Shown: positions 5,667 to 39,660 of the stretch, piece by piece
How positions within the stretch are numbered: the stretch's first letter is position 1
How the letters are laid out: every line of letters starts with the position of its first letter
NCBI GenBank assembly: GCA_947259575.1
Contig: CAMYMU010000001.1
Coordinates: 124,001-188,000, forward strand
Direction of reading: 5' to 3'
Length of the DNA stretch: 64,000 nt
Source: an uncultured Ectothiorhodospiraceae bacterium
GTDB taxonomy: Bacteria > Pseudomonadota > Gammaproteobacteria > UBA6429 > Thiohalophilaceae
Made by a program: the position numbers and the translations under genes
The notes under the pieces: model-generated
The model's input: the letters and a program-made list of their open reading frames with translations, nothing else
Database searches by the model: none
What the model was told of the DNA's origin: nothing

Positions 5667-6791
5667 ATGTTAAGACGCAGTGAATTCAAGTTTGTATTTA
5701 TTACTGGATTAATACTTATGGCAGCATTGTATACAGATGTTGTACAAGCCGATCGTATCAAGGATATAGCTAAAGTCGAAGGAGTACGTAGTAACCCGCT
5801 AGTTGGATATGGCCTTGTGGTAGGTTTGAATGGAACCGGTGATGGTAATGCACCGCATACTGTACAGAGCTTGCGTAGCATGTTGTCTCGCCTTGGCGTT
5901 AACATACCATCGAATATTTCATTGCAATCAAAAAATGTAGCGGCGGTAACTATTCACACAGAATTACCTGCGTTCGCTAAACCCGGTCAAACCGTGGATG
6001 TTACTGTTTCCTCGATAGGTAATGCGCGTAGTCTGCGCGGTGGTAGCCTATTGATTTCTCCACTAAAAGGTGTCGATGGAAAAGTCTATGCGATTGCACA
6101 AGGTAATATCATTGTTAGTGGTTTTGGTGCTGAAGGAAATGATGGTTCCCGTGTCACAGTAAATGTACCAAGCGTCGGTCGGGTGCCAAATGGTGCCACG
6201 GTTGAAAAAGCGGTTACTACTCCGTTCGGCCAAATGCGCGAGGTGGTTCTAAACTTACGGACGCCAGATTTTACGACTTCTAATAAAGTAACTCAGGTGA
6301 TCAATCAAACAATTGGACCAGGTACAGCCTATTCAATTGATGCAGGCTCGATCAATGTTCAAGCCCCAAAAGATTTGGCTCAACGCGTGGCGTTTATTTC
6401 AATGCTTGAGAATCTAACGGTTCAACCCGCTGAACCATCCGCACGTGTTATCGTAAATTCACGCACAGGAACCGTTGTCATCGGACGTCATGTTCGGGTA
6501 ATGCCGGCTGCCGTTTCACATGGTAGTTTGACCGTGACTATTACTGAAAGTAGCGACGTGAGCCAACCCGGCCCCTTTGGAGGTCCTGGAGCTCGTACTG
6601 TTGTAACACCATCATCTGATATTACTGTTTCTCAAACTAATTCTCGAATGTTCAAAATCAGAGAGGGTATTACCCTTGATGATATCGTTCGTGGCGTAAA
6701 TGAAGTGGGAATGGCGCCTGGTGACCTTGTTGCTATCCTTGAAGCCTTGAAAGAAGCAGGTGCGTTGCGCGCTGAACTCATTGTTATCTAG
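5667..6791 (+). CDS. flgI: Flagellar P-ring protein FlgI
   Basis: Periplasmic P-ring subunit. A Sec signal peptide (hydrophobic stretch from about residue 8, cleavage near VVQA) precedes the family start [32 protein letters not shown] prefer the ATG at 5667 to the in-frame GTG at 5658 because AAAGG lies at the right distance before it. The product is 374 residues, normal for FlgI. It is followed by about 200 bases containing a sigma54 promoter, so it probably ends the first flg transcript. Confidence 0.96.
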
Positions 6792-6931
6792 TCTCGTTAA
6801 TTACCTAAATCGGTGTACATGTTTGGTAATGCATACCCTGGTTGCCACTTCAACTACTAGCCTGCAAATAATTGCCGCAAAACAACCCTAAATAAATCAA
6901 TAAAAACAATAAGTTATAATATTTCCCGGGT

Positions 6932-6947
6932 TGGCAAGTAAATTGCA
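6932..6947 (+). promoter_or_regulatory. sigma54 promoter upstream of flgJ
   Basis: TGGCAAGTAAATTGCA keeps GG-N10-GC and the TTGC core of the -12 element. The only change in the -24 TGGCAC is its last base. It lies 45 bases before flgJ in a gap of 200 bases with no other gene and should drive flgJKL. Confidence 0.75.
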
Positions 6948-6991
6948 ATTACACAGCTATAGATCCAGTTTCCGTTCAAAAGACAGGGCCC

Positions 6992-7912
6992 ATGATAGCG
7001 AATACAGAACAAGCAACCTATAGCGACTTTGAAAGCATGAGCGGGTTACGCAAAAAAGCCGCGAATGATCCACATGCGACGTTACGGCAGGTCGCAAAAC
7101 ATTTTGAAAGCTTGTACATGAACATGATGCTTAAAAGCATGCGTCAGGCAAGTATGGGTGATCCGATATTTGATTCAAATAGCAGTGGTGTTTATCGAGA
7201 TATGTTTGACAGTCAGATTGCATTACAGATGAGTCAGCAAAACGGAATGGGTATTGCTGATATGTTAGTAAAGCAATTGCAGGGCGGTTTAGGAACGCCT
7301 GTACCGGACAAGAAGAACCCAGCAGCCTTGTCAGATGCTTTTGATCAAAAAGAGGGTAGTACTGTTGCTGGTGAGATGAAAACAAGTATCAAGAAACCTG
7401 TTCCGGTTTCATTTTCTTCTCATGCAGAGTTTGTTGATACATTGATGCCGTATGCAGAGCAAGCCGCTGACGAACTTGATGTTGCTCCACAGGTTTTAAT
7501 AGCGCAGGCAGCATTAGAAACAGGTTGGGGACAACATGTTCAAAAACTACCCAACGGACAAAGTAGTTATAACCTGTTTAACATCAAAGCGGATTCACGT
7601 TGGAATGGCGATAGTTTCAAAGTTAAGACGCTTGAGTACCATGATGGGATCGCACAACAAGAAAATGCATCATTTCGTAGTTATAGTTCCTATCAAGAGA
7701 GTTTTCGTGACTATGTTGAATTTATTCAAAACAACCCACGCTATGAAAAGGCTTTAGACACAGTAGCTGACCCAGAAGGTTATATGCAGGAGCTACAACA
7801 AGCCGGGTATGCAACAGATCCAAAATATGCGGATAAGGTCATTGATATTTATCAGCGCGAAGTTGTAGCAGCACCTTTCTCAGAATATTTCACTGAGAGC
7901 GCGAGTATCTAG
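6992..7912 (+). CDS. flgJ: Peptidoglycan hydrolase / rod-cap FlgJ
   Basis: Two-domain protein that caps the growing rod and cuts peptidoglycan to let it through. The N-terminal rod-binding domain (about residues 25-100) contains KHFESLYMNMMLKSMRQAS. The C-terminal glucosaminidase domain (about 145-295) contains VAPQVLIAQAALETGWGQH, with the catalytic glutamate in ALETGWG, and the later YNLFNIKAD. It is 306 residues, full length for the bifunctional gammaproteobacterial form. It begins a separate transcript under the sigma54 promoter at 6932. Confidence 0.96.
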   Translation: MIANTEQATYSDFESMSGLRKKAANDPHATLRQVAKHFESLYMNMMLKSMRQASMGDPIFDSNSSGVYRDMFDSQIALQMSQQNGMGIADMLVKQLQGGLGTPVPDKKNPAALSDAFDQKEGSTVAGEMKTSIKKPVPVSFSSHAEFVDTLMPYAEQAADELDVAPQVLIAQAALETGWGQHVQKLPNGQSSYNLFNIKADSRWNGDSFKVKTLEYHDGIAQQENASFRSYSSYQESFRDYVEFIQNNPRYEKALDTVADPEGYMQELQQAGYATDPKYADKVIDIYQREVVAAPFSEYFTESASI

Positions 7913-7926
7913 GGTGGGTATAAGAT

Positions 7927-10062
7927 ATGGCAGGTGACTTATTAGGAACGAGTACCTCTGGTGTACTCGCTGCACAGCGAGCCTTGGGCACGACTGGGCA
8001 TAATATTGCAAATGCAACTACAGAGGGCTTCTCTCGGCAGCGAGCAGATCTGGAGTCACGCAAACCAACTTTATCTGGAAATGGTGCAATAGGAACTGGT
8101 GTCATCGTCGATAATGTGAGTCGTTATTATGATGAGTTCGTTGTTGGGGAGTTACGTAATACGACATCACAAAGCAAGTTTTATGATAAAGCGTATGACT
8201 ATACAACCCAGGTTGATAATCTATTAGCAGATCCAAGAGCCGGTCTGGCTCCGTCATTATCAGATTTTTTCGACTCCGTAAATGGTCTAGCAAACGATCC
8301 TTCATCTAATTCTTCACGGCAGGTTATGTTGAGCTCCGCCAGAAATTTATCTGATCGCTTTGAGTTTATGAATACACGACTAGATGATCTGCGTACTGCG
8401 ACGAATGGTGACATGCGGGTAATGGTGGGTCAGGTCAATGAATTAGCAAAGGGTATTGCTGAGTTGAATAATGCCATTGTGCGTTCACGTGAAGTCACAA
8501 ATAAACCAGCTAATGATTTGCTTGATCAGCGGGATAGGCTTGTTGAGGAGTTGTCTGAACTAATTAACGTAAGAACAACGATCCAGGAAGACGATCGTAT
8601 GAACGTCTTTGTCGGCAATGGCCAGACGCTGGTAGTTGCAGATGTTGCCTCAAAACTAGATGTACAGTTGAATGAGTTTGATCCTACTCAATCTGAAGTC
8701 GTCTTCGTCGGCGCGGGAGGGAATACTGTTATTACACCGTACTTAACTGGTGGTGCCTTAGGCGGTCTTAATAAATTCCGTAGTGAAATACTTGACCCCA
8801 CTCAAAATGAACTTGGGCGTATTGCTATAGGTGTTGCCAAGACGTTTAATGAACAACACAAACTAGGTATGGATTTATCGAATCAACTGGGTGAAAGCTT
8901 TTTTTCTGAAATTGATACGGATTCTCCTCTTGTGTTGCCTAGTCTGAAAAACAAAGGCGATATACAACTCAAGGTTGAAGTTACGGATGCAGATAAACTA
9001 ACAACCAGTGACTATCAGTTGAATTATGTACAGGGCCAATATGAATTACTACGCTTAGATGATGCCAAGGTAATAAGACGCTTCTCAAGTCCACCACAGG
9101 AATTCGAGGAAGAAGGTCTGCGACTCACGATTAAAGGCGGCAGTAATATTCAGGAACTCGACAAGTTTATTATTCAACCGACGCGTCGCTCAGCAGAATT
9201 GTTTGGCGTTGAAGTCGGTTCGATTTCTAATATCGCCGCGGCATCTCCTATTCGTGTCGAGTCTGATATCGATAACCTTGGCGATGCCGAAATTGAAGTT
9301 ACCCAGATTACTTCAACAGACAATCCTTCATTTAAGACTGCTGCAGGTAATCTGAGCCCACCTTATATTGTTCGCTTCGTGGATGATAATAATTTTGAGA
9401 TCCTGGATAACTCAGGCAAACCGGTACGAGTGAAACTGGATGCATCTGCCGATGATCCGTCAATAAGCTTGAACGAATTTAAGGGTGCGACACCTGCTGT
9501 TCCTGCTACAGAAACAGAGGACGGGAGGGCCATACCTGCTATCCCCCCTAAACATGATCGCAAAGAGAAAGGTGAACAGGCTGATGGTCTTGGTGGTGTA
9601 GCAGGACCGATTCCCTACAACGCAAATGAGGGAACGGAGATATTACCTGTTGCAGGTGGTATCGATCGAGGTATTAACATCAAAGTGAATGGTAAGCCCC
9701 GTGCCGGTGATATTTTCAGGATCGAATTTAACACCGATGGAACCAGTGACAATAAGAATGCGCTGGCCTTAGCTCAGTTACAAACAAAACCCACTCTAAT
9801 GAGTAGCACAGCCGACTATGCACAGACATATGGTCAACTTGTTTCACGGGTTGGTAGTACAACCCATGAACTGGGTTTAAACAAAAAAGCCCAGAGTCTC
9901 TTACTAGATCAGGCGATCGAATCACGTGAAGCCGTATCAGGTGTGAATCTTGACGAAGAGGCAGCCGAGTTGATTCGCTACCAAAATCTTTACCAGGCGA
10001 ATGCACAGGTCATTGCTTCAGCAAAACAGACTTTCCAGGTTTTACTGGACGCGTTCAGGTGA
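7927..10062 (+). CDS. flgK: Flagellar hook-associated protein 1, FlgK
   Basis: First junction protein between hook and filament. The N-terminal motif is TSGVLAAQRALGTTGHNIANATTEGFSRQRAD, and the C-terminal coiled coil is SGVNLDEEAAELIRYQNLYQANAQVIASAKQTFQVLLD. It is long (711 residues), mainly because of an extended central domain. That domain includes a proline- and charge-rich segment at about residues 520-570 (ATPAVPATETEDG, PAIPPKHDRKEKGEQ), which looks like a flexible insert. The flgL start is five bases downstream. Confidence 0.96.
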   Translation: MAGDLLGTSTSGVLAAQRALGTTGHNIANATTEGFSRQRADLESRKPTLSGNGAIGTGVIVDNVSRYYDEFVVGELRNTTSQSKFYDKAYDYTTQVDNLLADPRAGLAPSLSDFFDSVNGLANDPSSNSSRQVMLSSARNLSDRFEFMNTRLDDLRTATNGDMRVMVGQVNELAKGIAELNNAIVRSREVTNKPANDLLDQRDRLVEELSELINVRTTIQEDDRMNVFVGNGQTLVVADVASKLDVQLNEFDPTQSEVVFVGAGGNTVITPYLTGGALGGLNKFRSEILDPTQNELGRIAIGVAKTFNEQHKLGMDLSNQLGESFFSEIDTDSPLVLPSLKNKGDIQLKVEVTDADKLTTSDYQLNYVQGQYELLRLDDAKVIRRFSSPPQEFEEEGLRLTIKGGSNIQELDKFIIQPTRRSAELFGVEVGSISNIAAASPIRVESDIDNLGDAEIEVTQITSTDNPSFKTAAGNLSPPYIVRFVDDNNFEILDNSGKPVRVKLDASADDPSISLNEFKGATPAVPATETEDGRAIPAIPPKHDRKEKGEQADGLGGVAGPIPYNANEGTEILPVAGGIDRGINIKVNGKPRAGDIFRIEFNTDGTSDNKNALALAQLQTKPTLMSSTADYAQTYGQLVSRVGSTTHELGLNKKAQSLLLDQAIESREAVSGVNLDEEAAELIRYQNLYQANAQVIASAKQTFQVLLDAFR

Positions 10063-10066
10063 GTAT

Positions 10067-11287
10067 ATGAGAGTTTCATCTAATCAATTCCAGAAAGTTG
10101 CTATAGATTCTATGCTGGATCAACAAGCCAAGTTGAGTAAAGTACAAGAACAGGTTGCAACAGGTAAGAAAATCACCAAGCCATCAGAAGATCCAGTCGC
10201 TGCCGCAAAGATTGTTAAGCTGCAAGATATCCTTAAAACGGTTGATCAATTTCAATCGAATATTAATTCTGCTCGCTCCAAGTTGACTCTGGAAGAAAGT
10301 GCCCTAGCAGACACAGTCTCTATTTATCATAGAATCCGTGAACTCACTATACAGGCGAACAATGCAAGCCAGACAAATGAGACACGAGGGTTTATTGCAG
10401 AAGAGATGCAACAGTTACTCGAGGAACTGGTGGCATTGGCCAATGCGACAGATAGTTCAGGTGAGTTCTTGTTTGCCGGAAACAAAGGAAAGTTTAAACC
10501 CTTCGCAAAAAATGCCACGGGAGGTTATGACTATCACGGTGACGATGGACGGCGCCAGATCCAGATAGGGCCTGGGCGACAAATTTCGATCAATGATTCA
10601 GGCAGTGATGTATTTCGAGAAATAAGAGACGGCAATGGTAAGTTTGCAGTGTTAGAAAGCAGCCGCAATCGTGGTACGGGGGTCGTCGATCCCGGTGCTG
10701 TAACGGGTAATTATGACATGGGAACGTTTGCTATTATATTTGACCGTAAGCAGTCAATCGATCCCAATGAACCCGTCACATACGCTGTCGTTGATGATAA
10801 GGGTAAAGAAATATTACCTGCAGGCCAACTTTATAACGATGGCAACGCGATAGAGTTTGCAGGTATTCATACGTTCATTAAAGGTGAACCAGAGCCCGGT
10901 GATTACTTTGTGGTAAGGCCCAGTTTCCACCAGGACATCTTCAAAACAATTCACGATTTTTCTAAGGATCTAAAGATAGGACGTGGTACAGAGGCTGACA
11001 TTGCGGCACTGAATAATCATGCCAACAGGATACTGGTATCTATGGACACTGCCCTGGGTAGCGTGCTTGAAACACGTGCTAATGTTGGAGCACGCTTGAA
11101 TGCACTCGAGAGTCAGGAAAATATTAATGAATCTGTTAAAGTCGAGGTACGTAAAATTTTATCAGATGTGGAAGATCTAGATTACGCCAAGGCGGTCAGT
11201 GAGCTAAACCTGAAGCTCACCGGACTACAGGCCTCGCAAAAAGCATTCACCCGCGTGCAGGATATTTCACTTTTTGATTTTATATAG
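10067..11287 (+). CDS. flgL: Flagellar hook-associated protein 3, FlgL
   Basis: Second hook-filament junction protein, homologous to flagellin at its ends. The N-terminus MRVSSNQFQKVAIDSMLDQQ is followed by KVQEQVATGKKITKPSEDPVAAAKI, and the C-terminus ends LNLKLTGLQASQKAFTRVQDISLFDFI. I used the ATG at 10067, just after the flgK stop. A longer frame starting inside flgK is not expected. It is 406 residues. A six-base-pair hairpin (AGTCCC/GGGACT, 11286-11300) overlapping the stop could be a weak terminator. Confidence 0.95.
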   Translation: MRVSSNQFQKVAIDSMLDQQAKLSKVQEQVATGKKITKPSEDPVAAAKIVKLQDILKTVDQFQSNINSARSKLTLEESALADTVSIYHRIRELTIQANNASQTNETRGFIAEEMQQLLEELVALANATDSSGEFLFAGNKGKFKPFAKNATGGYDYHGDDGRRQIQIGPGRQISINDSGSDVFREIRDGNGKFAVLESSRNRGTGVVDPGAVTGNYDMGTFAIIFDRKQSIDPNEPVTYAVVDDKGKEILPAGQLYNDGNAIEFAGIHTFIKGEPEPGDYFVVRPSFHQDIFKTIHDFSKDLKIGRGTEADIAALNNHANRILVSMDTALGSVLETRANVGARLNALESQENINESVKVEVRKILSDVEDLDYAKAVSELNLKLTGLQASQKAFTRVQDISLFDFI

Positions 11288-11370
11288 TCCCATAGGGACT
11301 CCTCATTATTTTCCCTGAGTAGACCAATAAGACTCGAATGTTTGGCTAGCACAGGGGAAGAGTTTCTTTG

Positions 11371-11452
11371 CCTACTTTCTTGTCGAGACAAGAAAGTAGG
11401 TCGCTCTAGGCGAGAGCGAAAGAACACATACGATCACAAAGCAAAATCATAT
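11371..11452. repeat. Hairpin repeat element, copy 1 (single unit)
   Basis: A perfect inverted repeat (arms CCTACTTTCTTGTC, 11371-11384, and its complement, 11387-11400) is followed at once by a second hairpin (TCGCTCT / AGAGCGA, 11401-11419). An A-rich spacer containing ACAAAGCAAAATCATATC comes next. The same layout and near-identical sequence recur at 61461-61630. It lies between the convergent genes flgL and the dsrC-like gene, four bases before the stop of the latter. No transposase or coding content is seen. Confidence 0.75.
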
Positions 11453-11455
11453 CTA

Positions 11456-11818
11456 CTAACAACTTGTTCCAAACGATTGATTACGACTGTCACCGGGCGC
11501 GGGGATACCTGCTATCTTACTCCCCTGCGAAACGGGTCCCTCGGGGAAGAGGGTATAGAGATATTTACTGCCACCTTTACTCGCGAACTGTGTATTCATG
11601 GCCTGTGAGAGCGAACGAACGTGTTTAATTTGCCCGTGCTTTTTAAAGGTGCGGCGTAAGTAACCCAGAACTTCGATGTGTTCATCTGTGAGCTCGATGT
11701 TTTCAGATTTTGCTATTTCATATGCCACGGTAGGATTCCATGGCTCAGTCATTTCATAGTTATCATGTATACCTAATACCTGAGTTTTTTTCTGTTTCTC
11801 CGTAAGTTCGTTTTGCAT
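11456..11818 (-). CDS. DsrC/TusE-family protein without the usual cysteines
   Basis: A 120-residue member of the DsrC/TusE/RspA family. It has LTDEHIEVLGYLRRTFKKHG in the middle and the family block YLYTLFPEGPVSQGSKIAGIPAP near the end. DsrC proteins use two C-terminal cysteines ten residues apart to carry sulfur as a trisulfide, and TusE keeps the last one. Here the first is Ser (QGSKIAG), and the position eleven residues on is also Ser (PGDS). A nine-residue extension follows, ending in a lone terminal Cys. This suggests an RspA-like regulatory protein or a changed active tail rather than a standard sulfur carrier. A GAGGTG ribosome site precedes the ATG. It stands alone, opposite to the flagellar genes on both sides. 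Confidence 0.8.
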   Translation of the reverse strand: MQNELTEKQKKTQVLGIHDNYEMTEPWNPTVAYEIAKSENIELTDEHIEVLGYLRRTFKKHGQIKHVRSLSQAMNTQFASKGGSKYLYTLFPEGPVSQGSKIAGIPAPGDSRNQSFGTSC

Positions 11819-28752: not shown

Positions 28753-28971
28753 TAATTCAACAAATTTTAAGTTTAAAAATCCCATCCATTTTTCTTCAGT
28801 TGCCACAAGACTTCAAGCTGAGGAATTATCTATGAAAATCCTAAAGCCAACTTAGATGCAGTCGATATCTACCACATAGGAACTTTTGGACAACAAACCT
28901 TGGGCCCAATCGGAAAGTTTTTTCACAAGAATCGGGAGCAACCTGAGGATGACGCAGGAGAAATGCGGGGC

Positions 28972-29247
28972 ATGGCGAGCGAAGTAGTGAGATGCGGCGA
29001 TGTACTGGATATTTCGGTGGTAACAGAGAGACAAGCTGAATTCCGAGATGTGCTAGAAAACCAAAAAGAGATTGAATTATCAGCAGGAGAATTACAGCGA
29101 ATTGATGGCGCGGGTATTCAAATGCTCGTGGCGTTATTTCGTCAGGCTGAACAGGAGCAGAAAGAAATTAGCTGGAAGGATACCTCTGATTCTTTGTTAA
29201 GTGCTGCCTCCTTACTGGGTGTCAGTGAAGAACTACACCTCAATTAA
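28972..29247 (+). CDS. STAS-domain protein (anti-sigma antagonist-like)
   Basis: Single STAS domain of 91 residues (GDVLDISVVTERQAEF, then LSAGELQRIDGAGIQMLVALFRQAEQ). In SpoIIAA-type proteins a Ser or Thr follows the Asp of this loop and is phosphorylated. Here the residue is Gly (RIDGAG), so switching by that route is unlikely. I chose the ATG at 28972, where the STAS fold begins and AGGAG lies eleven bases before. The frame is open further upstream (from 28822) with a TTG at 28900 and an ATG at 28963. It heads the cheY-cheA-cheW operon, and such proteins occur in other che clusters. Its role is unknown. Confidence 0.75.
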   Translation: MASEVVRCGDVLDISVVTERQAEFRDVLENQKEIELSAGELQRIDGAGIQMLVALFRQAEQEQKEISWKDTSDSLLSAASLLGVSEELHLN

Positions 29248-29364: not shown

Positions 29365-29730
29365 ATGGCAGTAAAAATATTAGCAGTTGACGACTCGGCA
29401 TCCATGCGACAAATGGTGACCTTTACTCTCAAAGGTGCTGGTTATGATGTGGAAGAGGCTGCAGATGGTCAGCAAGCGTTGGATAAAGCAAAAGGTGGTA
29501 AGTTTAATCTTGTTATCTCTGACGTAAATATGCCTGTCATGGATGGCATTACCTTAATCAAAGAACTCCGCACCTTAGCTGATTATAAGTTTACCCCCAT
29601 ACTTATGCTGACCACTGAAAGTACTTCTGATAAGAAACAGGAAGGAAAATCAGCAGGCGCAACTGGCTGGATAGTTAAACCATTTAATCCAGATCAGCTA
29701 CTTGCAACGGTTAAGAAAGTAGTTGGCTAA
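29365..29730 (+). CDS. cheY: Chemotaxis response regulator CheY
   Basis: Single-domain receiver of 121 residues. It has the acid pocket (VDDS), acceptor Asp53 (ISDVNMPVMDG), the Thr of the switch (MLTTES) and the Lys of IVKPF. CheA phosphorylates it and it would bind the motor switch or act as a phosphate sink. ACAAGGAG precedes the ATG. It lies between the STAS gene and cheA. Confidence 0.93.
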   Translation: MAVKILAVDDSASMRQMVTFTLKGAGYDVEEAADGQQALDKAKGGKFNLVISDVNMPVMDGITLIKELRTLADYKFTPILMLTTESTSDKKQEGKSAGATGWIVKPFNPDQLLATVKKVVG

Positions 29731-29754: not shown

Positions 29755-31812
29755 ATGACCATTGATATGACTCAGTTTCTACAGACTTTCTACGAAGAAA
29801 GTTTTGAAGGTCTAGATGTCATGGAGTCGGAGCTGTTAAACCTTGATGTCGGTGCAGCAGACGAAGAAACCATTAATACCATTTTCCGTGCGGCACATTC
29901 GATTAAAGGTGGTAGTGGTACCTTTGGTTTGACAGCAGTTGCTGAATATACCCATGTCATGGAAACTCTGTTGGATGAAATGCGTGATGGGCGTCGCCAG
30001 GTTACCCAGGAAAGTGTTGATGTCCTATTGCGTTCAGTTGACGTACTAAGAGGAATGTTGACGGCTCTTCGAGACGAGGAAGATCTGGATAGCCAAAGCA
30101 TCGGTGAGTCGCAAAAAGAATTAGATGTCTTGTTGGCCAGTGGTGGTGATGCAGTCGTTTCAGGTACTACAGCTGCTCAAAGCACTGATCAAGTACAGCA
30201 AAGCGAAGAAAAAAATACAGGATGGAAAATTAGCTTCAGCCCCCATATCAATATGTTGAAAACCGGTAATGATACGGTACGCATGTTACGTGAGCTGGCT
30301 GAACTGGGTGAAATGGAGTTGACCGCGAACGTAGAAAATATTCCCGATTTTAGCGAGCTTGATCCTGAAGAAAGCCACATGCGCTGGAATATTCATTTGT
30401 CCGGAGATGTAACAGAAGAGCAAATTAGAGAAATCTTTGAATGGGTTGATGACGAATGTGATCTTGAACTTCAACCAATAAAATCTGCACCAGCAACAGA
30501 TACTGAAAAGCAACCGGAAGCTGCACCTGCTACTACAGAGCGCAGGAGTAGCGCTGACCGTCGATCAGGTGATCGCCGCAAAGCCTCCTCTGAATCGGCT
30601 TCAATTCGTGTTTCTATAGATAAAGTTGATGAGCTGATCAATACAGTCGGTGAATTAGTTATAACTCAATCCATGCTTGGGCAGTTTGGTGAGGCGGAAG
30701 AATTTACCCCTGAACATATTGAAAAATTACGTGATGGACTGGGTCAACTAGAACGTTATACCCGCGAGCTTCAGGAATCGGTAATGCGTATTCGTATGTT
30801 ACCAATAAGTTTTGTCTTTCAGCGGTTCCCGAGACTTGTCCATGACCTAAGTGGAAAACTTAATAAGCAAATAGAACTGAAAATGTCAGGTGAGGGTACT
30901 GAGCTTGATAAAACTGTGATGGAAAAAATAGGCGACCCGCTAGTTCACCTGGTTAGAAATTCAATTGATCACGGGATTGAAATGCCAGATGTGCGAAAAC
31001 AAAATGGCAAGTCAGAAATGGGCGTCGTCCATTTAAATGCATATCACCAAGGCGGAAACATTGTTATCGAAATAACAGACGATGGTGCCGGCCTTAATCG
31101 TGAAAAAATATTAAACAAAGCTATAAAGAGTGGCCTTGTCTCAGAGAGTGACCAGTTAACAGATGAGCAAATCGATGATCTGGTTTTCCATCCAGGTTTA
31201 TCAACTGCTGATGAAGTTAGCGATATATCTGGTCGTGGCGTAGGCATGGATGTGGTGCGTAAAAATATACGCTCCCTAGGGGGTGCGGTCGATGTTAAAT
31301 CAATGCCAGGTAAAGGTTCGACATTCTCAATTCGCTTACCACTGACACTTGCAATTCTTGATGGCCAGTTAGTCACAGTCGGTGATGAGACCTATATTGT
31401 TCCACTTGTATCGATTGTAGAGTCGATTCAGGTTAAACAAGCAGATGTGAATCTTATCAATGGTCGTGGTGAGGTCTATAAGTTGCGTGATGAATATATT
31501 CCTGTTGTCAGGCTGTACCACATGTTTGGTAACAAGCCGCAATCGACGACCTTGGATGATGGTTTGTTAGTTGTTGTCGAAGCTGAGGGTCAGAAAATGG
31601 CATTGTATGTCGATGATCTACAAGGTCAGCAACAGGTCGTTATCAAGAGTTTGGAAACCAACTTCAAGAAAGTAGAAGGGATATCAGGTGCGACCATACT
31701 TGGCGATGGAACAGTTGCACTTATTCTCGATATAAGTGGTCTTGTATTGCTTAACAAAATAGCAGGTGTACCAGATTTATCCGTTGTCGATAGTGATATC
31801 GAAGCGGCATAA
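29755..31812 (+). CDS. cheA: Chemotaxis histidine kinase CheA
   Basis: Receptor-coupled kinase that phosphorylates CheY and CheB. Domains in order: HPt with acceptor His48 (RAAHSIKGGSGTFG); a P2-like region (about 160-245); the dimerisation helices (VDELINTVGELVITQ); the ATPase with N box HLVRNSIDHGIE, DDGAGL and GRGVGMDVV; and a C-terminal CheW-like domain. It is 685 residues, a normal single-HPt CheA. It lies 24 bases after cheY. Confidence 0.97.
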   Translation: MTIDMTQFLQTFYEESFEGLDVMESELLNLDVGAADEETINTIFRAAHSIKGGSGTFGLTAVAEYTHVMETLLDEMRDGRRQVTQESVDVLLRSVDVLRGMLTALRDEEDLDSQSIGESQKELDVLLASGGDAVVSGTTAAQSTDQVQQSEEKNTGWKISFSPHINMLKTGNDTVRMLRELAELGEMELTANVENIPDFSELDPEESHMRWNIHLSGDVTEEQIREIFEWVDDECDLELQPIKSAPATDTEKQPEAAPATTERRSSADRRSGDRRKASSESASIRVSIDKVDELINTVGELVITQSMLGQFGEAEEFTPEHIEKLRDGLGQLERYTRELQESVMRIRMLPISFVFQRFPRLVHDLSGKLNKQIELKMSGEGTELDKTVMEKIGDPLVHLVRNSIDHGIEMPDVRKQNGKSEMGVVHLNAYHQGGNIVIEITDDGAGLNREKILNKAIKSGLVSESDQLTDEQIDDLVFHPGLSTADEVSDISGRGVGMDVVRKNIRSLGGAVDVKSMPGKGSTFSIRLPLTLAILDGQLVTVGDETYIVPLVSIVESIQVKQADVNLINGRGEVYKLRDEYIPVVRLYHMFGNKPQSTTLDDGLLVVVEAEGQKMALYVDDLQGQQQVVIKSLETNFKKVEGISGATILGDGTVALILDISGLVLLNKIAGVPDLSVVDSDIEAA

Positions 31813-31822
31813 GGAGAAATAT

Positions 31823-32344
31823 ATGACCGACATAGCACAAACAGTAGGTAATACAGACATTATGACAGATGGAGATGAATCTCATCAGCAATATCTAACC
31901 TTTATTCTTGCAGGAGAAGAATACGGAGTAGATATTTTAAGGGTCCAAGAAATTAAGGGCTGGGACACTGTGACACAGATACCCAATACACCTGAGTATA
32001 TTCGTGGTGTGATAAACCTGCGTGGCACCATCGTGCCTATTATTGATATGCGGGTGCGTTTTGGGTTGGAAGACCTCGGTTATGGACCCACAACCGTAGT
32101 CATTGTTCTAAAAGTAAATAGCGACGATAAAAGTAGAATTATGGGGATTGTTGTTGATGGTGTTTCTGATGTCTACAACATGCCGGATGAAGAGATTAAA
32201 CCATCGCCTGATTTCGGTTCGGCTGTAGATACTGATTTTGTCAAAGGCCTGGCGACAGTCAATGAAAAGATGGTCATCGTGCTTGATATTGACCATATGT
32301 GTAACTCTGATGAGTTATCAAATATAGATAGTGCAACAAATTAA
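31823..32344 (+). CDS. cheW: Chemotaxis coupling protein CheW
   Basis: Adaptor linking receptors to CheA. The family segments are YLTFILAGEEYGVDILRVQEIKGWDTVTQIPNTPEYIRGVINLRGTIVPIIDMR. AAGGAG precedes the ATG at 31823; an earlier in-frame start inside cheA is unlikely. It is 173 residues. Confidence 0.96.
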   Translation: MTDIAQTVGNTDIMTDGDESHQQYLTFILAGEEYGVDILRVQEIKGWDTVTQIPNTPEYIRGVINLRGTIVPIIDMRVRFGLEDLGYGPTTVVIVLKVNSDDKSRIMGIVVDGVSDVYNMPDEEIKPSPDFGSAVDTDFVKGLATVNEKMVIVLDIDHMCNSDELSNIDSATN

Positions 32345-32382
32345 AATAGAAATAGATTGAAACGGATCTTAAGGAAATGCGA

Positions 32383-33135
32383 ATGATCGCAGTGATGAAT
32401 CAAAAAGGTGGCGTAGGCAAAACAACGACCACGATGAACTTATCACATGCTTTGGCACAAACAGGCCAGCGCGTGTTAGCGATTGATCTTGATCCTCAGG
32501 CACATTTAACAGCAGGCTTTGGCCTGGTTCGTCGCTCACAACCAGGAATGGCGGAACTGATGTTAGGTGAGAAGTCAGCAGATGAAGTGATTGTGTTAGC
32601 TCGAGATAACATGGATCTAATACCAGCTGGTGATCGTTTGGGTGAGTTAGAGCACTTAACAGATGGTGGTTCAAAGCGAGGTTGGTTATTACGAGATTCA
32701 CTACAGGATGTTGCAGAAGAGTATGATTATATCTTAATTGATTGCCCACCTTCTTCAGGCATTCTTGGTATGAATGCACTGCTGGCAGCAAAAGAAGTCT
32801 TAATACCGGTATCGGGTGATTTTTTCGCGTTGCAAGGATTAGCGAGATTGATGGGGATTTTTCAACATATTGAGTCATCGCTTAATTTGAATACGGAAAA
32901 GTGGGTTGTGTTGACACGATTCCAGGAAAGACGACGTTTAGCGAAAGATGTCCGCGAAAAAATTATGTCTTACTTTCCGAAGCGTGTTTACCGAACTGCT
33001 ATTCGTGAGGCTGTGGCACTAGCAGAGAGTCCAGGGTTTGGGCAAACAATTTTTGAGTACCAGGCAAGTAGCAATGGCGCCAAGGACTATAAAGAGTTGG
33101 CTAAGGATATTTTAAAAGGCAAAGCAATGCATTAA
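32383..33135 (+). CDS. ParA-family ATPase of the chemotaxis operon
   Basis: MinD/ParA-type ATPase with the deviant Walker A KGGVGKTT, Walker A' DLDPQAH and Walker B LIDCPPS. ParA homologues inside che operons (ParC in Vibrio, PpfA in Rhodobacter) position chemosensory arrays at the pole or partition cytoplasmic clusters. With a soluble receptor two genes downstream, a role in placing cytoplasmic arrays is the likely one. I chose the ATG at 32383, which has AAGGA seven bases before it, over the ATG at 32377. It is 250 residues. Confidence 0.9.
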   Translation: MIAVMNQKGGVGKTTTTMNLSHALAQTGQRVLAIDLDPQAHLTAGFGLVRRSQPGMAELMLGEKSADEVIVLARDNMDLIPAGDRLGELEHLTDGGSKRGWLLRDSLQDVAEEYDYILIDCPPSSGILGMNALLAAKEVLIPVSGDFFALQGLARLMGIFQHIESSLNLNTEKWVVLTRFQERRRLAKDVREKIMSYFPKRVYRTAIREAVALAESPGFGQTIFEYQASSNGAKDYKELAKDILKGKAMH

Positions 33136-33301: not shown

Positions 33302-36244
33302 ATGGCTAAACGATCAGAAAGTAAACTGGGTTTTGACCCATTATCCTGGATGGATGAGGATAGTGACGGTAACAAAGAAACCAGCAAGTCTAGCGCAAAG
33401 AAAAAAAGCGGAAAGGAGAAAACCATGGCACGAAGTTCAGTAACAAAAAAGGGGAGTGCCAAAAGTACAGCGAATAATCATCCGCTTGGCTTGAATGTAC
33501 CAGCACTTGAAAAAAGTTTTAATCTTCTGGCTCCACAAGCAGATAAGCTGGTTGCCAGGTTTTATGAAGAATTGTTTAAGCGTCACCCAGACGTTAAACC
33601 TTTATTCAAGAATACAACACCTGCAAAGCAGCAAAAAAAGTTAATTGCCGCTTTGTCACTGGTTGTCTCCAACCTGAACAACGTTGATGTTTTGTCAAAA
33701 GCATTAACAGAAATGGGGGCGAGACACGAGGGATATGGGGCGATAGAAGCACATTACGGAGCAGTCGCCACTACATTAATGGATGTAATGAAAGAATTGG
33801 CAGGCAGGGCCTGGACTAAAGAAGTCCATGAGGCCTGGAGTCATGCTTTAGGAACAATTGCAGAGGTTATGCTGAGCGCATACGGAAAATCGGAGGGTAA
33901 TACCATGGCAGCAAATTTAGAAGAAGTAGCAGGAATGAGTGAATCGGAGGGTGCTGAACTAACACGCATGCGCTCTGCTGTCGATGGCGCGATGACGGCA
34001 ATCATGATGATTGATCGTGACTTTAATATCACCTATGCGAATAAATCAACGGTTGATATGTTGACCAAACACCAGGATACGATGCGAACAGTATTTCCAG
34101 GTTTTAACGTAGACAACCTAATTGGTTCGTGCATCGATACGTTCCATCGTAATCCAACGCATCAACGCCAATTGTTGAGCAATCCGGCTAACCTCCCATA
34201 TTCAACAGATATCGAAGTAGGTCCGCTTAACTTTAGACTAAACGTGACTGCGATGATTGATGATAGCGGTAACTACATTGGTAATACTCTGGAGTGGTCA
34301 GATATTACAGAAACAAAGGCAAAAGAATCAGAAGTAGTTCGGTTACAAGGTACGGTTGATGGTGCGATGACGGCAATCATGATGATTGATCGTGATCTCA
34401 ATGTCACCTATGCCAATGATGCAACGCTTAAAATATTGCGCGACAATGAAGCAGCATTACGCTCTATTTATCCTGGGTTTAATTCAGACCAATTGATTGG
34501 TTCATGTATTGACATGTTCCATAAAAACCCCGCACACCAGCGGCAGCTGTTAGGTAATCCAGCCAATCTACCATACTCAACAGATATTCATGTTGGTCCT
34601 CTCATTTTCCGCATCAATGTAACCGCAATTATGGATGCACAAGGTGAGTATGTTGGAAATGCACTGGAATGGTCTGACGTTACTGAAACACGTAAGAAAG
34701 AAAATGAAGTTGCACGACTGATGTCAGCAGTCGATGGTGCAGAGGCGAACTTAATGCTTTGTGACGAAGATCTGAATATAACTTATGCAAACCCTGCTGT
34801 AGTACAGATGTTGGCCAATCGTCAAACAGAGCTTCGTCAGATTTGGCCAGGCCTGGATGTAAATAATTTGATTGGAACGTGTATTGATGGTTTCCACAAG
34901 AACCCTGCTCATCAACGTGCATTATTATCCGATAAGTCCCGACTGCCTGCGACCGCAGAAATCAAAGTTGCTGAGCTTGAGTTTAGAGTTAACGCAACTA
35001 TGATCACTGGCCCGAATGGTGAGTATATGGGGAACATGGTGCAGTGGAGCGATATCACTGAGCAGAAAGATGCTGAGCGTCAAATCGAAAATTTAATTGA
35101 TTCGGCGAGTATGGGTGAGCTTAGTGCGCGCATCAATTCTGAGGGGTATTCAGGCTTTATGAAGAACCTGGGCACGGGCATTAATAACCTGATGGATGCC
35201 GTTGTGGCGCCAATCCAGGAGAGTAAGCGTGTCATGGTCTCGTTGTCGAAAGGGGATCTTACTCAGAGTATGGCCGGTGAATACCATGGCGAATTCGCAG
35301 AATTACGCGATGCTGTTAATGAGAGTATCAATAATCTGTTTAAAATGGTGAACGACATTCGTAATTCATCAGGAAGTATTTCTTCTGCAGCGAGTGAGAT
35401 TTCTCAAGGTAATACTGATTTGAGTCAGCGTACTGAAGAACAAGCATCCTCACTTGAAGAGACCGCATCCAGTATGGAAGAGATGACTAGTACCGTAAAA
35501 CAAAATGCCGATAATGCACGACAAGCTAATCAACTTGCCTCAGCTGCTCGTGAACAGGCTGAAAAAGGTGGTGACGTTGTTTCAAATGCGGTCACCGCGA
35601 TGGGCGAGATTAACACAAGTAGTAAGAAGATCTCTGACATCATCAGTGTTATTGACGAGATTGCTTTCCAAACTAACTTGCTGGCCTTAAACGCCGCGGT
35701 GGAAGCCGCACGAGCGGGTGAGCAGGGTCGCGGTTTCGCAGTTGTCGCTGGAGAGGTTCGTAATCTGGCACAGCGAAGCGCTGGTGCCGCGAAGGAAATT
35801 AAATCTCTGATTAACGACAGTGTTGAGAAAGTTGATGAGGGGTCCAAGTTGGTTGACGAGTCTGGCGAGACACTGGCAGAAATTGTGAATGCAGTTAAGA
35901 AGGTAAGTGACATCATTGCCGAGATTGCTGCTGCCGGACAGGAACAATCGTCTGGTATTGAACAGGTCAATAAGGCTGTGATGCAAATGGATGAGATGAC
36001 TCAACAAAACGCTGCGCTGGTAGAAGAAGCGGCATCGGCTAGTGAGTCAATGGAAGAACAGGCCAAGGGTATGATGCGTTTAATGGAATTCTTCAACTTA
36101 GGCGAGGGTGGGCAATTTACTGCGGCTCCTACGGCAGCACCGCACCATCAGACTGCACCAGCTGCACCACGTGCTAGTCGCCCCGCGGCGGCACCAAAGC
36201 AGCAGGCACCTGGGGCAAGCGATAGTGAGTGGGATGAGTTCTAA
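33302..36244 (+). CDS. Soluble chemoreceptor with globin, three heme-type PAS domains and CheR-docking tail
   Basis: A 980-residue methyl-accepting chemotaxis protein with no membrane segment. Layout: charged linker (1-60); globin of flavohemoglobin type (61-195) with Phe102 in PLFKN and proximal His142 in RHEGYG; three PAS domains (about 222-337, 347-462, 472-587); HAMP-like segments (588-680); a kinase-control domain with the hairpin tip around [26 protein letters not shown]; an Ala/Pro linker (940-972); and the tail EWDEF. Each PAS has the Aer2-type signature FHxNPxHQR (His282, 407, 532) and a Trp in the last strand (Trp332, 457, 582), residues tied to heme and oxygen in Pseudomonas Aer2. 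Oxygen sensing is inferred. Good internal starts lie at 33425 and 33905. Confidence 0.93.
33965..35089 (+). repeat. Three tandem 375-bp PAS-encoding units
   Basis: Residues 222-596 of the chemoreceptor are three units of exactly 125 residues. The key His (282, 407, 532) and Trp (332, 457, 582) recur at constant spacing, and blocks such as [14 protein letters not shown] and [11 protein letters not shown] are shared by units 1 and 2. Unit 3 is more diverged. This points to stepwise internal duplication, with units 1 and 2 the younger pair. Confidence 0.85.
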
Positions 36245-36262: not shown

Positions 36263-37105
36263 ATGTCATCGGTATACGATCGTGAATTCGCATTCACACA
36301 TAAGGACTTTGAATACATACGGGACCTGGTTGGAGAGCGTACTGGGATAGTTCTCTCCGACCATAAGGTCGATATGGTATATGGTCGTCTTGCGCGCCGT
36401 TTGCGGCAGCTTGATATTTCTTCTTTTCAGAATTACCTGTCAGTTCTTGAAGATAAATCTAATAGTGACGAGCTGATTGAATTTACCAACGCCTTAACAA
36501 CCAATCTGACTTCGTTTTTCAGAGAGCCACATCATTTTGATTTTTTGCTAAAAAAGGGTATTCCAGATTTATTAAAACGTCGGCCAAACAAGCGTTTGCG
36601 TATCTGGTCTGCTGGCTGTTCAACGGGCGAAGAGCCGTACACGCTAGCAATTACCCTTAACGAAGCCATTCCCAATATCAAAAATTGGGATGTAAAAATC
36701 CTGGCAACAGATCTTGACTCCAACGTCGTAGCAAAAGGTAAAGCAGGTGTTTATACCCAGGATCGCGTTAACGGCATTGATAAGGGGCGATTAAACAAAT
36801 GGTTTAAAAAAGGCCGTAATGATCTGTTAGACAAGGTACGCGTTTCACAAAATCTGCAGGATCTGATTACCTTTAAGCAACTGAACTTGTTACATGAGTG
36901 GCCGATGAAAGGGAAGTTTGATTTTATATTTTGCAGGAATGTGGTCATCTATTTTAACAAAGACACACAGCGTGAATTGTTTGACCGCTACGCAGATCAT
37001 TTAGCGGATGATGGCTATTTGATAGTAGGACATTCAGAGTCTCTTCATAAAGTGAGCGATCGTTTCAAATTATTGGGTAAAACAATCTATAGTAAAGTTA
37101 AATAA
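36263..37105 (+). CDS. cheR: Chemotaxis methyltransferase CheR (complete copy)
   Basis: SAM-dependent glutamate methyltransferase. The N-terminal helical domain (FEYIRDLVGERTGIVLSDHKVDMVYGRLARRLR) and the catalytic domain (RIWSAGCSTGEEPYTLAI, the SAM-binding loop; FDFIFCRNVVIYF) are intact. It is 280 residues. It follows the receptor carrying the EWDEF pentapeptide and precedes cheD by one base, so it is probably the dedicated methyltransferase of that receptor. Confidence 0.96.
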   Translation: MSSVYDREFAFTHKDFEYIRDLVGERTGIVLSDHKVDMVYGRLARRLRQLDISSFQNYLSVLEDKSNSDELIEFTNALTTNLTSFFREPHHFDFLLKKGIPDLLKRRPNKRLRIWSAGCSTGEEPYTLAITLNEAIPNIKNWDVKILATDLDSNVVAKGKAGVYTQDRVNGIDKGRLNKWFKKGRNDLLDKVRVSQNLQDLITFKQLNLLHEWPMKGKFDFIFCRNVVIYFNKDTQRELFDRYADHLADDGYLIVGHSESLHKVSDRFKLLGKTIYSKVK

Positions 37106-37106
37106 G

Positions 37107-37757
37107 ATGACTGGACTAATCCAACAAAAGGATTTGCCGCCGCCACCCAGAGCTTTACGGGGGTTCTCAGAGGTTAATCGTTATTGGGATCGACAGCGAG
37201 AAATCTATGCGGCCAAGATTCTGCCCGGCGAATATTATGTCACAACAAATAATGAATTAATTGTCACGGTACTCGGTTCCTGTGTATCGGCATGTATTCG
37301 TGATCCAGTGATGGCTATCGGCGGTATGAATCACTTTATGTTACCTGCTAGTGCAGATATGAATAGTTCCAGCTTTAACTCTGAAGCGACTCGATATGGC
37401 AATTTTGCAATGGAAAAATTGATCAATGATATTTTGAAGAATGGCGGTCGTCGTGAGGCATTAGAAATTAAATTGTTTGGTGGTGGCAAAGTGATTGCAC
37501 ATATGAACCAGGCTGATGTTGGCAACAGGAATATTGCCTTTGCCCGTGACTATGTGCAGATGGAAGGATTTAGAATAACAGCAGAAGATATGGGTGATAT
37601 TTATCCTCGCAAAGTTGTCTACGATCCGATCTCTGGTAAAGTTCAGATCAAGAAACTTAGAAAATTACACAACGAAACTATTGTGCAGCGTGAGCAAGGT
37701 TACCTTGAAACAATTAAAGAAACTCCATCTGCTGGTGACATAGAGTTGTTTGATTAA
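37107..37757 (+). CDS. cheD: Chemoreceptor glutamine deamidase CheD
   Basis: Deamidates receptor glutamines and can interact with CheC or CheY. The catalytic Cys59 ([10 protein letters not shown]) and His76 (GGMNHFML) are present, and the [12 protein letters not shown] segment fits the family. It is 216 residues. It lies between cheR and cheB, as in the Che2 operon of Pseudomonas aeruginosa. Confidence 0.95.
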
Positions 37758-37758
37758 C

Positions 37759-38838
37759 ATGGATAAGATAAAAGTACTTGTTATTGATGATTCAGCTCTG
37801 ATACGTCAGATGTTGACTGAGTTGCTAAATAAAGATCCTGAAATTGAAGTAGTAGGCGCGGCACAAGACCCAATCATTGCACGCGATAAGATTAAGCAAC
37901 TCAATCCGGATGTCTTAACACTGGATGTAGAAATGCCGCGCATGGACGGCATCACTTTTTTACGAAATCTTATGCGCTTGCGACCAATGCCTGTGGTTAT
38001 GGTATCGACCTTAACCGAGAAAGGTGCGGATGTTACCTTTGAAGCAATGGAATTAGGTGCGATAGATTTCGTAACTAAACCTAATCTTGATGTTCGTGAA
38101 CAGTTACAAAACTATGCTGAAGAGATTGCGACTAAAGTTAAGATTGCCTCTAAGGCAAAGGTTACGGCGATCACCGATCGTGTGCGCAATAAGGATAAAG
38201 ATGTAAAAAGAACCGCAGATGCGGTACTGGAAAAACGCTCAGCACCTAGTTCAACTAAACTCAAAACGACGGATAAAATTATCGCGATTGGGGCTTCAAC
38301 CGGTGGTACAGAGGCGATCCGCGAGGTACTTGAGTATATGCCTGCTGATGCGCCGGGCATTGTGATTACCCAGCACATTCCACCTAAATTCAGTACCTCG
38401 TTTGCACAACGCATGGATACGGTTTCTGCCATGACTGTCTATGAAGCTGAGGATGGTCAGCAGATTGTGCCTGGCCACGTCTATATTGCTCCAGGTGATC
38501 AACACTTGCTGGTGGAACGCAGTGGTACCTGCTACTACTGTCGATTAAATGACGGTCCAGCCGTCAGCCGTCATAAACCCAGTGTTGATGTACTGTTCCG
38601 TTCGGTGGCCCAAAGCGTAGGCTCTAGTGCCATTGGCGTTATTTTAACCGGTATGGGAGACGATGGCGCGAAAGGGATGCTAGAGATGAAAGAGGCTGGA
38701 GCGCCCACCATTGCTCAGGATGAGGCGAGCAGTGTGGTTTGGGGCATGCCCGGTGAGGCAGTGAAATGTGGTGCTATTGACACAGAATTGCCGCTGGCCA
38801 GTATCGTAGGCAAGCTCATTACCCTTTCACGCTCCTAA
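37759..38838 (+). CDS. cheB: Chemoreceptor methylesterase CheB
   Basis: Response-regulator methylesterase/deamidase. The receiver has acceptor Asp56 ([12 protein letters not shown]). The catalytic domain has Ser in GASTGGTEA, His in TQHIPPKFS and Asp in LTGMGDDGA. It is 359 residues. The ATG at 37759 directly follows the cheD stop. It closes the che operon. Confidence 0.96.
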
Positions 38839-38907: not shown

Positions 38908-39660
38908 GTGAAGATTAAAGCGAAGACCTACACAACAGCCGAAAAGAGTGAAATGGATGCTCTTGTGGACCAACACGCTGAGTTGGTGCACCGTCTTGCC
39001 TATCACCTCTCGGCCCGCTTACCCGCCAGTGTCTTGATCGACGACCTGATTCAGGCTGGTCTGATTGGTTTGATGGATGCGGCCTCACATTATGATCCTA
39101 GCCAAGGGGCAAGTTTTGAAACCTATGCCTCAATTCGAATACGTGGTTCGATGCTGGATGAGCTACGCCGTAACGATTGGGCACCAAAATCAGTGCATCG
39201 CAAGGCGCGTGATATGGTCGCTGCTGTCAACAAAATAGAGTCCCGCACCGGGCGAGATGCGAGACCAACAGAAGTTGCTAAGCTCATGGGTATCTCTGTG
39301 GATGAGTATCATCAAATGGTGTTGGAGACCAATACCTGCCGGGTACTGAACTTTGCGGATGTGGAATACGATGACCAGAACTATTGCGATGGGGTTTCAG
39401 ACGAAAAGCAGCAAGGTCCATTGAAAGGTATTCAGCGGGATGAATTTAAACAATATCTGGCCGATGCCATCAAGCTTTTACCAGATAGAGAGCAGTTAAT
39501 TATTAGTTTGTATTACGACGAAGAGTTAAATCTAAAAGAAATCGGTAGCGTGCTCGGGGTAAGCGAATCGCGGGTCAGTCAATTAATGAGTCAGGCCCAT
39601 GTCAGAATGCGAAGCAGCCTGCATGAGTTCTTAGAACCAGAAACACAGGAAGCTGGCTAA
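38908..39660 (+). CDS. fliA: Flagellar sigma factor FliA (sigma28)
   Basis: RNA polymerase sigma factor for late flagellar genes such as fliC. Region 2 (HAELVHRLAYHLSARLPASVLIDDLIQAGLIGLMDAASHYD, RIRGSMLDELRRNDW) and region 4 (LPDREQLIISLYYDEELNLKEIGSVLGVSESRVSQLMSQAHVRMR) are typical. I use the GTG at 38908. An ATG at 38953 is an alternative that would still keep region 2. It is 250 residues. A small hairpin (TGGCTAA/TTAGCCA, 39654-39670) overlaps its stop. Its place after cheB instead of after flhF-fleN is unusual. Confidence 0.95.
   Translation: MKIKAKTYTTAEKSEMDALVDQHAELVHRLAYHLSARLPASVLIDDLIQAGLIGLMDAASHYDPSQGASFETYASIRIRGSMLDELRRNDWAPKSVHRKARDMVAAVNKIESRTGRDARPTEVAKLMGISVDEYHQMVLETNTCRVLNFADVEYDDQNYCDGVSDEKQQGPLKGIQRDEFKQYLADAIKLLPDREQLIISLYYDEELNLKEIGSVLGVSESRVSQLMSQAHVRMRSSLHEFLEPETQEAG

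Follow-up and report, generated by a model that had tools for sequence, protein, structure and literature searches.

A conserved, widespread Aer2-type chemoreceptor variant with an added globin, a module also found in the kinase and adaptor of related operons

We analyzed a window of 64,000 nucleotides from an uncultured Ectothiorhodospiraceae bacterium (GCA_947259575.1, contig CAMYMU010000001.1, positions 124,001 to 188,000), whose plus strand encodes at 33302..36244 a globin-PAS-PAS-PAS-HAMP-MCPsignal chemoreceptor of 980 residues, delimited by its open reading frame and by domain searches. The closest described systems are the Aer2 receptors of Pseudomonas aeruginosa (Aer2/McpB) and Vibrio cholerae, with which it shares PAS domains carrying an Eta-helix histidine, a HAMP region, and a place in a che operon; the I-beta tryptophan of its PAS domains is found in the P. 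aeruginosa protein (3VOL, 4HI4), and the pentapeptide for CheR is another shared trait, and its methyl-accepting chemotaxis protein (MCP) hairpin equals that of Tsr (1qu7) in length. It differs from both receptors in having three PAS domains and a globin, where PMC7184735 describes one PAS and five HAMPs for P. aeruginosa and two PAS and two HAMPs for V. cholerae, and in the ParA encoded within its operon. Three heme-PAS domains are also present in Vibrio vulnificus Aer2, and a receptor of Leptospira interrogans has three N-terminal PAS domains (PMC13401364); the passage of that review describing the V. vulnificus protein names no globin.

A globin at the N terminus of a protein with MCP output is familiar from HemAT and other globin-coupled sensors, which nevertheless differ from the window receptor in the family of their globin and in consisting only of globin, linker, and signaling domain (PMC13401364). 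Globin and PAS have been described in silico within one cytoplasmic MCP of a che cluster, Cc_4972 of Corallococcus coralloides (PMC6194562); compared by that description, its globin is a Bac_globin, which belongs to another Pfam family, and no Aer2 kinship is mentioned in the part that treats it. A search of the open-access literature found no globin of the flavohemoglobin type on an Aer2-like receptor, nor any in CheA or CheW, with subscription papers mostly outside that search and domain databases possibly listing such proteins without comment. A preliminary description, made from the sequence alone, had known of no receptor with this architecture; this still holds for a flavohemoglobin-type globin on a multi-PAS Aer2, which we did not find in print, and not for the two partial precedents, as both an Aer2 with three heme-PAS domains and an MCP with PAS and Bac_globin are published.

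We conclude that the window receptor is a conserved and widespread Aer2 variant with an added globin, and that, within its family, this globin has increased in copy number and spread to kinase and adaptor proteins. As for function, we favor, with a probability of roughly 0.6, the reading that the receptor is an Aer2-like soluble gas sensor of an F7/Che2-type operon in which the tethered globin acts as an auxiliary gas-binding module. The gene is a single frame without interruption, and the same architecture recurs in 60 distinct receptors, which together rule out a frame or assembly artifact. With a best 19-residue hydropathy mean of 1.45 and no membrane-helix-like stretch, the 980-residue protein is predicted to be soluble, as first proposed. 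Pfam places a globin at residues 86-190 (PF00042, 60.7 bits against a cut-off of 22), then three PAS stretches, HAMP_2 (PF18947) at 621-678 within a HAMP region of residues 593-684 (35078..35353), and MCPsignal at 744-900 within a signaling region of residues 681-935 (35342..36106). Residues 206-980 are covered by the NCBIfam model for the Vibrio Aer2 equivalog (NF041847, 1078.4 bits), and residues 710-932, a candidate 36H-class signaling hairpin, align to residues 1-223 of Tsr (1qu7) at equal lengths. The protein ends in EWDEF (36227..36241), which by sequence fits the CheR-tether pattern x-[HFYW]-x(2)-[HFYW] given in PMC7184735, a pattern present in 58 of the 60 globin-PAS-MCP receptors. The HAMP region and this tether, like the N-terminal tag and the chemosensory operon discussed below, go beyond what the preliminary description had reported.

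The three PAS domains occupy residues 222-339 (33965..34318), 347-464 (34340..34693), and 472-589 (34715..35068). Each has the motif FHxNPxHQR noted at the outset, starting at residues 281, 406, and 531 (His282, His407, and His532), and a tryptophan in its final strand (Trp332, Trp457, and Trp582). Each also aligns to solved heme-PAS domains of Aer2, from P. aeruginosa (3VOL, 4HI4) as well as V. cholerae (6CEQ), with E values from 1.6e-20 to 1.7e-27, which together with the NF041847 match bears out the Aer2 kinship first suggested. In all three domains the FHKNPAHQR stretch and the last-strand QW are in register with 3VOL and 4HI4; 6CEQ has no tryptophan at the last-strand place. All 153 PAS domains detected in the 60 receptors retain [FY]H and [EQ]W; the strict patterns, which were not tied to an alignment column, matched 146 (His) and 150 (Trp) of them, and the 7 and 3 exceptions still read FH or YH and EW by eye. 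Since His142 of the globin and the histidines and tryptophans of the three PAS domains are all invariant columns across 20 aligned receptors, these motifs are unlikely to be there by chance. Gas sensing by the PAS domains is a well-founded prediction; in the PAS of P. aeruginosa Aer2, the histidine that holds the heme is His234 (PMC13401364). The earlier proposal that one polypeptide could cover several affinity ranges fares less well for the PAS domains: according to the same review, the three of V. vulnificus Aer2 have similar O2 affinities, which speaks against it.

A flavohemoglobin-type globin, supported by Pfam, alignments, and a structure model, spans residues 63-194 (33488..33883), with His142, the residue named in the preliminary description, on the F8 histidine column. 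Its pocket residues are Tyr88 (B10), Phe102 (CD1), Gln110 (E7), His142 (F8), and Tyr152 (G5), and these five are conserved in all 104 globin domains compared, which come from receptors (80, the window included), receptor pieces (5), CheW (8), CheA (6), STAS proteins (3), and protein kinases (2). Duplicate sequences were counted once, three fragments of fewer than 120 residues (L048, L091, L124) were dropped before tree building and pocket counting, and the 104 do not include five single-domain globins, among which L034 is off-register and has a branch length of 10. Together with the three PAS domains, the globin brings the protein to four candidate heme sites with intact pocket residues, as originally envisaged, and it probably holds heme.

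By profile, the closest solved structures are Vitreoscilla hemoglobin and the Hell's Gate globins of Methylacidiphilum (HGbRL, 3WFW; HGbI, 3S1I). The structure prediction that the preliminary description had called for recovers the globin fold, the modeled domain superposing on O2-bound HGbI (3S1I) with a template modeling (TM) score of 0.90 by target length and a root mean square deviation of 1.2. The whole-receptor AlphaFold model, from an alignment of 20 rows, has a mean predicted local distance difference test score (pLDDT) of 72.4 and a predicted TM score (pTM) of 0.31. HGbI, in which Tyr B10 and Gln E7 are conserved, binds O2 with very high affinity, and HGbRL is itself a putative sensor with a globin of the same group (PMC4476040), unlike the window receptor in being joined to Roadblock/LC7 and in lacking chemotaxis domains. 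A HemAT-type globin, which the first analysis had already set apart, is ruled out by the absence of a Protoglobin (Pfam) match in the window receptor and by the flavohemoglobin-family solved matches; some relatives have Protoglobin matches weaker than their Globin match, above cut-off in L043 and L070. Elsewhere in the genome of the window, a single-domain globin that also belongs to the flavohemoglobin family (G000:C43:42868-43248) is about 31% identical to the receptor globin.

Flavohemoglobin enzymes have a glutamate at H23 as part of their proximal triad. In the window receptor, Tyr194 stands at this place, which was set by the Vitreoscilla alignment plus two ungapped residues and counted 15 residues after an invariant Trp; among the 104 domains it holds Tyr in 82, Asp in 10, Gly and Glu in 3 each, Ala and Asn in 2 each, and His and Ser in 1 each. 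As Pfam and NCBIfam find no FAD/NAD reductase behind the globin of the window receptor and the glutamate is kept in only 3/104, a flavohemoglobin enzyme is ruled out.

How the globin is joined to the rest of the receptor separates it from the PAS domains. Of 107 joints between PAS domains, 93 have a gap of 7 residues and nine more a gap of 8, and the model threads a helix through the gap; such fixed spacing suits an in-line relay. The linker between globin and PAS1 (residues 195-221; 33884..33964) varies in length among relatives, from 18 to 280 residues with a median of 29.5 over 70 joints (four long gaps, of at least 124 residues, may conceal a PAS missed by the profile), and in the window receptor pLDDT falls below 50 over residues 197-221. 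Because this linker is variable while PAS-PAS spacing is mostly fixed, we read the globin as an auxiliary module rather than a HemAT-like in-line sensor. It seems to hang on a leash, and the same goes for the copies that follow CheW or lie within the CheA linker.

The domain-architecture search proposed at the outset, for globin plus multiple PAS plus MCPsignal, uncovered a broad family, which rules out a receptor unique to this genome. Scanning named genomes returned 66 loci, mostly from gammaproteobacterial metagenome-assembled genomes but also from Thioalkalivibrio sulfidiphilus ALJ17 (L123), from a Methylophaga (L116), and, as two receptors (L083, L119), from Myxococcota. In 106 loci (L039-L124, L161-L180), the window's own receptor excluded, there are 60 distinct complete globin-PAS-MCP receptors; 31 have one globin and three PAS domains, 26 one and two, and single receptors one and one, three and three, or six and four, counts that depend on the PAS profile and would be too low wherever it missed a domain. 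In a sample of 369 genomes of the window's class, 84 match the globin profile at 1e-20, and 43 have a globin match at or below 5e-35 in a frame 550 or more residues long, including G155 (two stops) and G038 (592 residues, counted as scanned). The last PAS and HAMP of the window receptor are matched at or below 3e-59 in 40 genomes, and in 34 of these a long frame no more than 3 kb away contains the globin; the exceptions are G126 (in pieces, on two contigs), G371, G276, G113, G174, and G158. Among 46 genomes with weaker PAS-HAMP matches (to 1e-30), eight have a globin in a long frame. On a tree of 86 receptors built from the last PAS to the hairpin, globin presence needs five changes, at least three of them forced by well-supported branches; 65 of these receptors have a globin match (the degenerate L187 scored as present) and 21 have none, most of the latter chosen for showing none.

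The same globin is found in other proteins of these operons. In CheA, Pfam detects it between the Hpt and dimerization domains in L039, L044, L062, and L085, and the profile alone in L066 and the pieces L061, L091, and L124; wherever both sides are visible, it sits in the linker ahead of the dimerization domain. CheW is followed by one, two, or three globins in L080, L102, and L043, respectively (Pfam), and has a globin mid-chain in L089 and L178, where the model gives the globin a pLDDT of 89-98 with the two CheW halves flanking it at lower confidence. Globin-STAS proteins occur in L045, L088, and L166. Some of these genes were fetched twice (L039/L070, L044/L059, L041/L062, L042/L066, L085/L169). 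A single operon of genome G018 encodes both a CheA with one globin and a receptor of 1839 residues that combines six globins with four PAS domains. The pieces of a receptor at a contig end (L062) and a contig start (L063) of genome G028 carry three and four globins; they are unjoined, and if they belong to one gene it would have at least seven. The same type of globin also stands at the C terminus of proteins with a protein kinase domain and leucine-rich repeats in two Myxococcota loci, L120 (7025-10405, domains by Pfam) and L121 (7115-10414, domains by eye and globin profile).

In the L059 operon, the globins of CheA (6074-8494) and of the receptor are sisters (Shimodaira-Hasegawa-like approximate likelihood ratio test, 99); they are 91% identical as protein and 80% as DNA, which is most simply explained by copying within the operon. 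The globin tree (132 columns, 109 rows, many open forks; the intended outgroup rows L036 and L038 absent) requires three changes of the CheA label, at least two of them forced, four of the CheW label, at least one forced, and one of the STAS label, where only changes forced by well-supported branches were used and a forced change may be a gain or a loss. Since the L059 copy is nested among receptor globins and label changes are forced, the simplest reading of the tree would be repeated entry of the module into CheA. A wider proposal, which we advance tentatively and consider somewhat less probable than its opposite, is that the module has been copied among the F7-operon proteins (receptor, CheA, CheW, and STAS) and that gas is also read directly at the kinase and adaptor; the one operon of G018 would then contribute seven globins together with four heme-PAS sites.

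In the reading that we favor, the globin and each of the three PAS domains would hold a b-type heme and bind O2 (or CO or NO). Signals from the PAS domains would run in line through their fixed-length helical joints to the HAMP and the MCP hairpin and thereby set CheA activity, CheR would dock at the C-terminal EWDEF, and the ParA of the operon would position the cytoplasmic array through the N-terminal tag. The flexibly leashed globin would bias the output by contact with PAS1 or with neighboring globins rather than as a link in the rigid relay. In this scheme, we infer heme occupancy, the ligand, the direction of the response, the globin's mode of action, and the ParA contact.

The presence of the same globin on receptor, CheA, CheW, and STAS proteins, its tandem arrangement in up to six copies, and its loose joints would also suit a module for building arrays, in which globin-globin contacts hold or tune the lattice and the heme is structural or gives an O2-dependent grip; moreover, cytoplasmic arrays are thought to form a sandwich at whose center the ligand-binding domains face each other (PMC3964821). 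A purely structural domain, however, would have no need of five pocket residues invariant in 104/104, among them Tyr B10 and Gln E7 on the distal side, and CheA and CheW lie at the baseplates, far from the receptor N termini (PMC7184735), so that we regard this explanation as unlikely. Less probable again is a globin that scavenges or buffers NO or O2 and so shields the heme-PAS domains while taking no part in signaling: the flavohemoglobin-type distal pocket, the loose tether, and the attachment to several array proteins would agree with it, but the reductase is missing, Glu H23 is kept in only 3/104 (Tyr in 82/104), and small gases presumably diffuse too fast for a tethered binder to maintain a local difference. 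Least probable is a HemAT-like sensor driving PAS1 conformationally through its last helix, for despite an N-terminal position as in globin-coupled sensors and an invariant heme pocket, the joint is long, differs in length among relatives, and is predicted to be disordered, unlike the PAS-PAS joints, and the globin falls outside the sensor (protoglobin) family.

Several observations weigh against the globin being an auxiliary gas-binding module of an Aer2-like sensor. Judged by the ratio of nonsynonymous to synonymous substitution rates (dN/dS), the globin is under purifying selection (0.05-0.17 in 11 close receptor pairs, two of the 13 tried having saturated dS), yet it is less constrained than the rest of the receptor, evolving faster than the MCP region in 11/11 usable pairs and faster than the last PAS in 7/9 (with L110/L112, where nonmatching PAS domains were paired, and L064/L065, with saturated PAS dS, set aside). 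The receptor of genome G174 (L187 1853-4612) has a degenerate N-terminal globin-like stretch (17 bits) with no F8 histidine in a pairwise alignment, which suggests that the domain can outlive heme binding. Close receptors without a globin match (L184, L185, L186) indicate that the PAS relay does not need the globin. The low pLDDT of the linker may stem from the shallow alignment of 20 rows, the globin inserted mid-chain in CheW is an exception to the picture of a leash, and the score against NF041847 misses that model's cut-off of 1200.

At the N terminus of the window receptor, residues 8-17 (33323..33352) form a tag of the type GxDPLxW[ML] that we consider a candidate ParA-partner and ParA-activating motif, as it tracks operon-encoded ParA. 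The pattern GxDP[LF]xW[MIL] is found in 35 of 37 operons with parA and in 0 of 20 without (Fisher test, 2e-13, not corrected for kinship), the window itself being left out of this count. It lies near the N terminus of the receptor in 29 of the 35 and on the STAS protein in 6, and where the STAS protein bears it the receptor does not. Of the two parA operons without the pattern, L170 has MDPLAWL and L180 nothing alike; an operon without parA, L103, shows a weak likeness (NFDPLVSM). A second set, 21 loci of receptors without an intact globin, has parA in 4, the tag standing on the receptor in L186 and L194 and on a globin-STAS protein in L045; in the fourth, L201, the STAS protein that follows parA has GDDPLAAL at its start, a weaker form outside the pattern. 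The tag was found in 0 of the 17 loci of this set without parA, where a distant parA could escape notice, most stretches being 5-7 kb long. On the tree, tag and parA each change nine times, and of four supported independent pairs three agree, none disagrees, and one shows no difference (P = 0.25). In L045 (genome G003, same genus), the receptor (8616-11738) is without a globin and the tagged globin-STAS protein (6882-7781) lies directly behind parA. ParA/MinD ATPases have partners whose N termini, short and positively charged, mediate their action, and an N terminus of this kind is present in Rhodobacter TlpT, which has been suggested as the partner of PpfA (PMC7993993, PMC10241942, PMC3964821). 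By analogy, we infer that the tag may be the array's contact for ParA.

The operon runs in the order STAS, cheY, cheA, cheW, parA, receptor, cheR, cheD, cheB, all on the plus strand. Upstream of the receptor are a STAS protein without a globin (28900..29247, start putative), CheY (29365..29730), CheA (29755..31812) and CheW (31823..32344, its start an ATG inside the 31766 frame), both without a globin in this genome, and, directly upstream, the ParA-type ATPase (32377..33135); downstream are CheR (36263..37105), CheD (37107..37757), and CheB (37762..38838, its start an ATG inside the 37750 frame). Relatives have a similar order with parA present or absent, several with a second MCP of about 400 residues nearby. 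A shared end tag, [DE][IV][DE]LF, is found on 14/15 CheD proteins and 10/10 of these second MCPs (L161-L180), the CheD of the window ending in DIELFD, and is likely a docking tail common to both.

A gene for a sigma-28-like factor follows the operon (38908-39660). The same genome has a second chemosensory set on contig C46 (L181), with CheA, CheY, CheZ, CheB, MotA- and MotB-type proteins, a ParA-like protein, CheW, and a second FliA. Each set thus has its own sigma-28-like factor, the second at L181 13956-14693, and the two are 51% identical over 222 residues. By gene content, the window set looks F7-like and the other F6 flagellar-like. Given this second CheA set with CheZ, Mot-type proteins, and FliA on another contig, we dropped the idea that the F7 set replaces a flagellar F6 set.

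In textbook chemosensing, receptors sense and CheA and CheW relay the signal. If the globins in CheA and CheW and the six copies on one receptor do hold heme, the kinase layer itself could read gas. A natural series of receptors with 0, 1, 3, and 6 globins would allow the number of hemes to be set against sensitivity and range, and one member of the family belongs to a named strain, T. sulfidiphilus ALJ17. A tag linked to ParA would, in turn, give a sequence rule for which cytoplasmic arrays their own ParA positions. In this family, oxygen-binding modules may run through the entire sensing apparatus.

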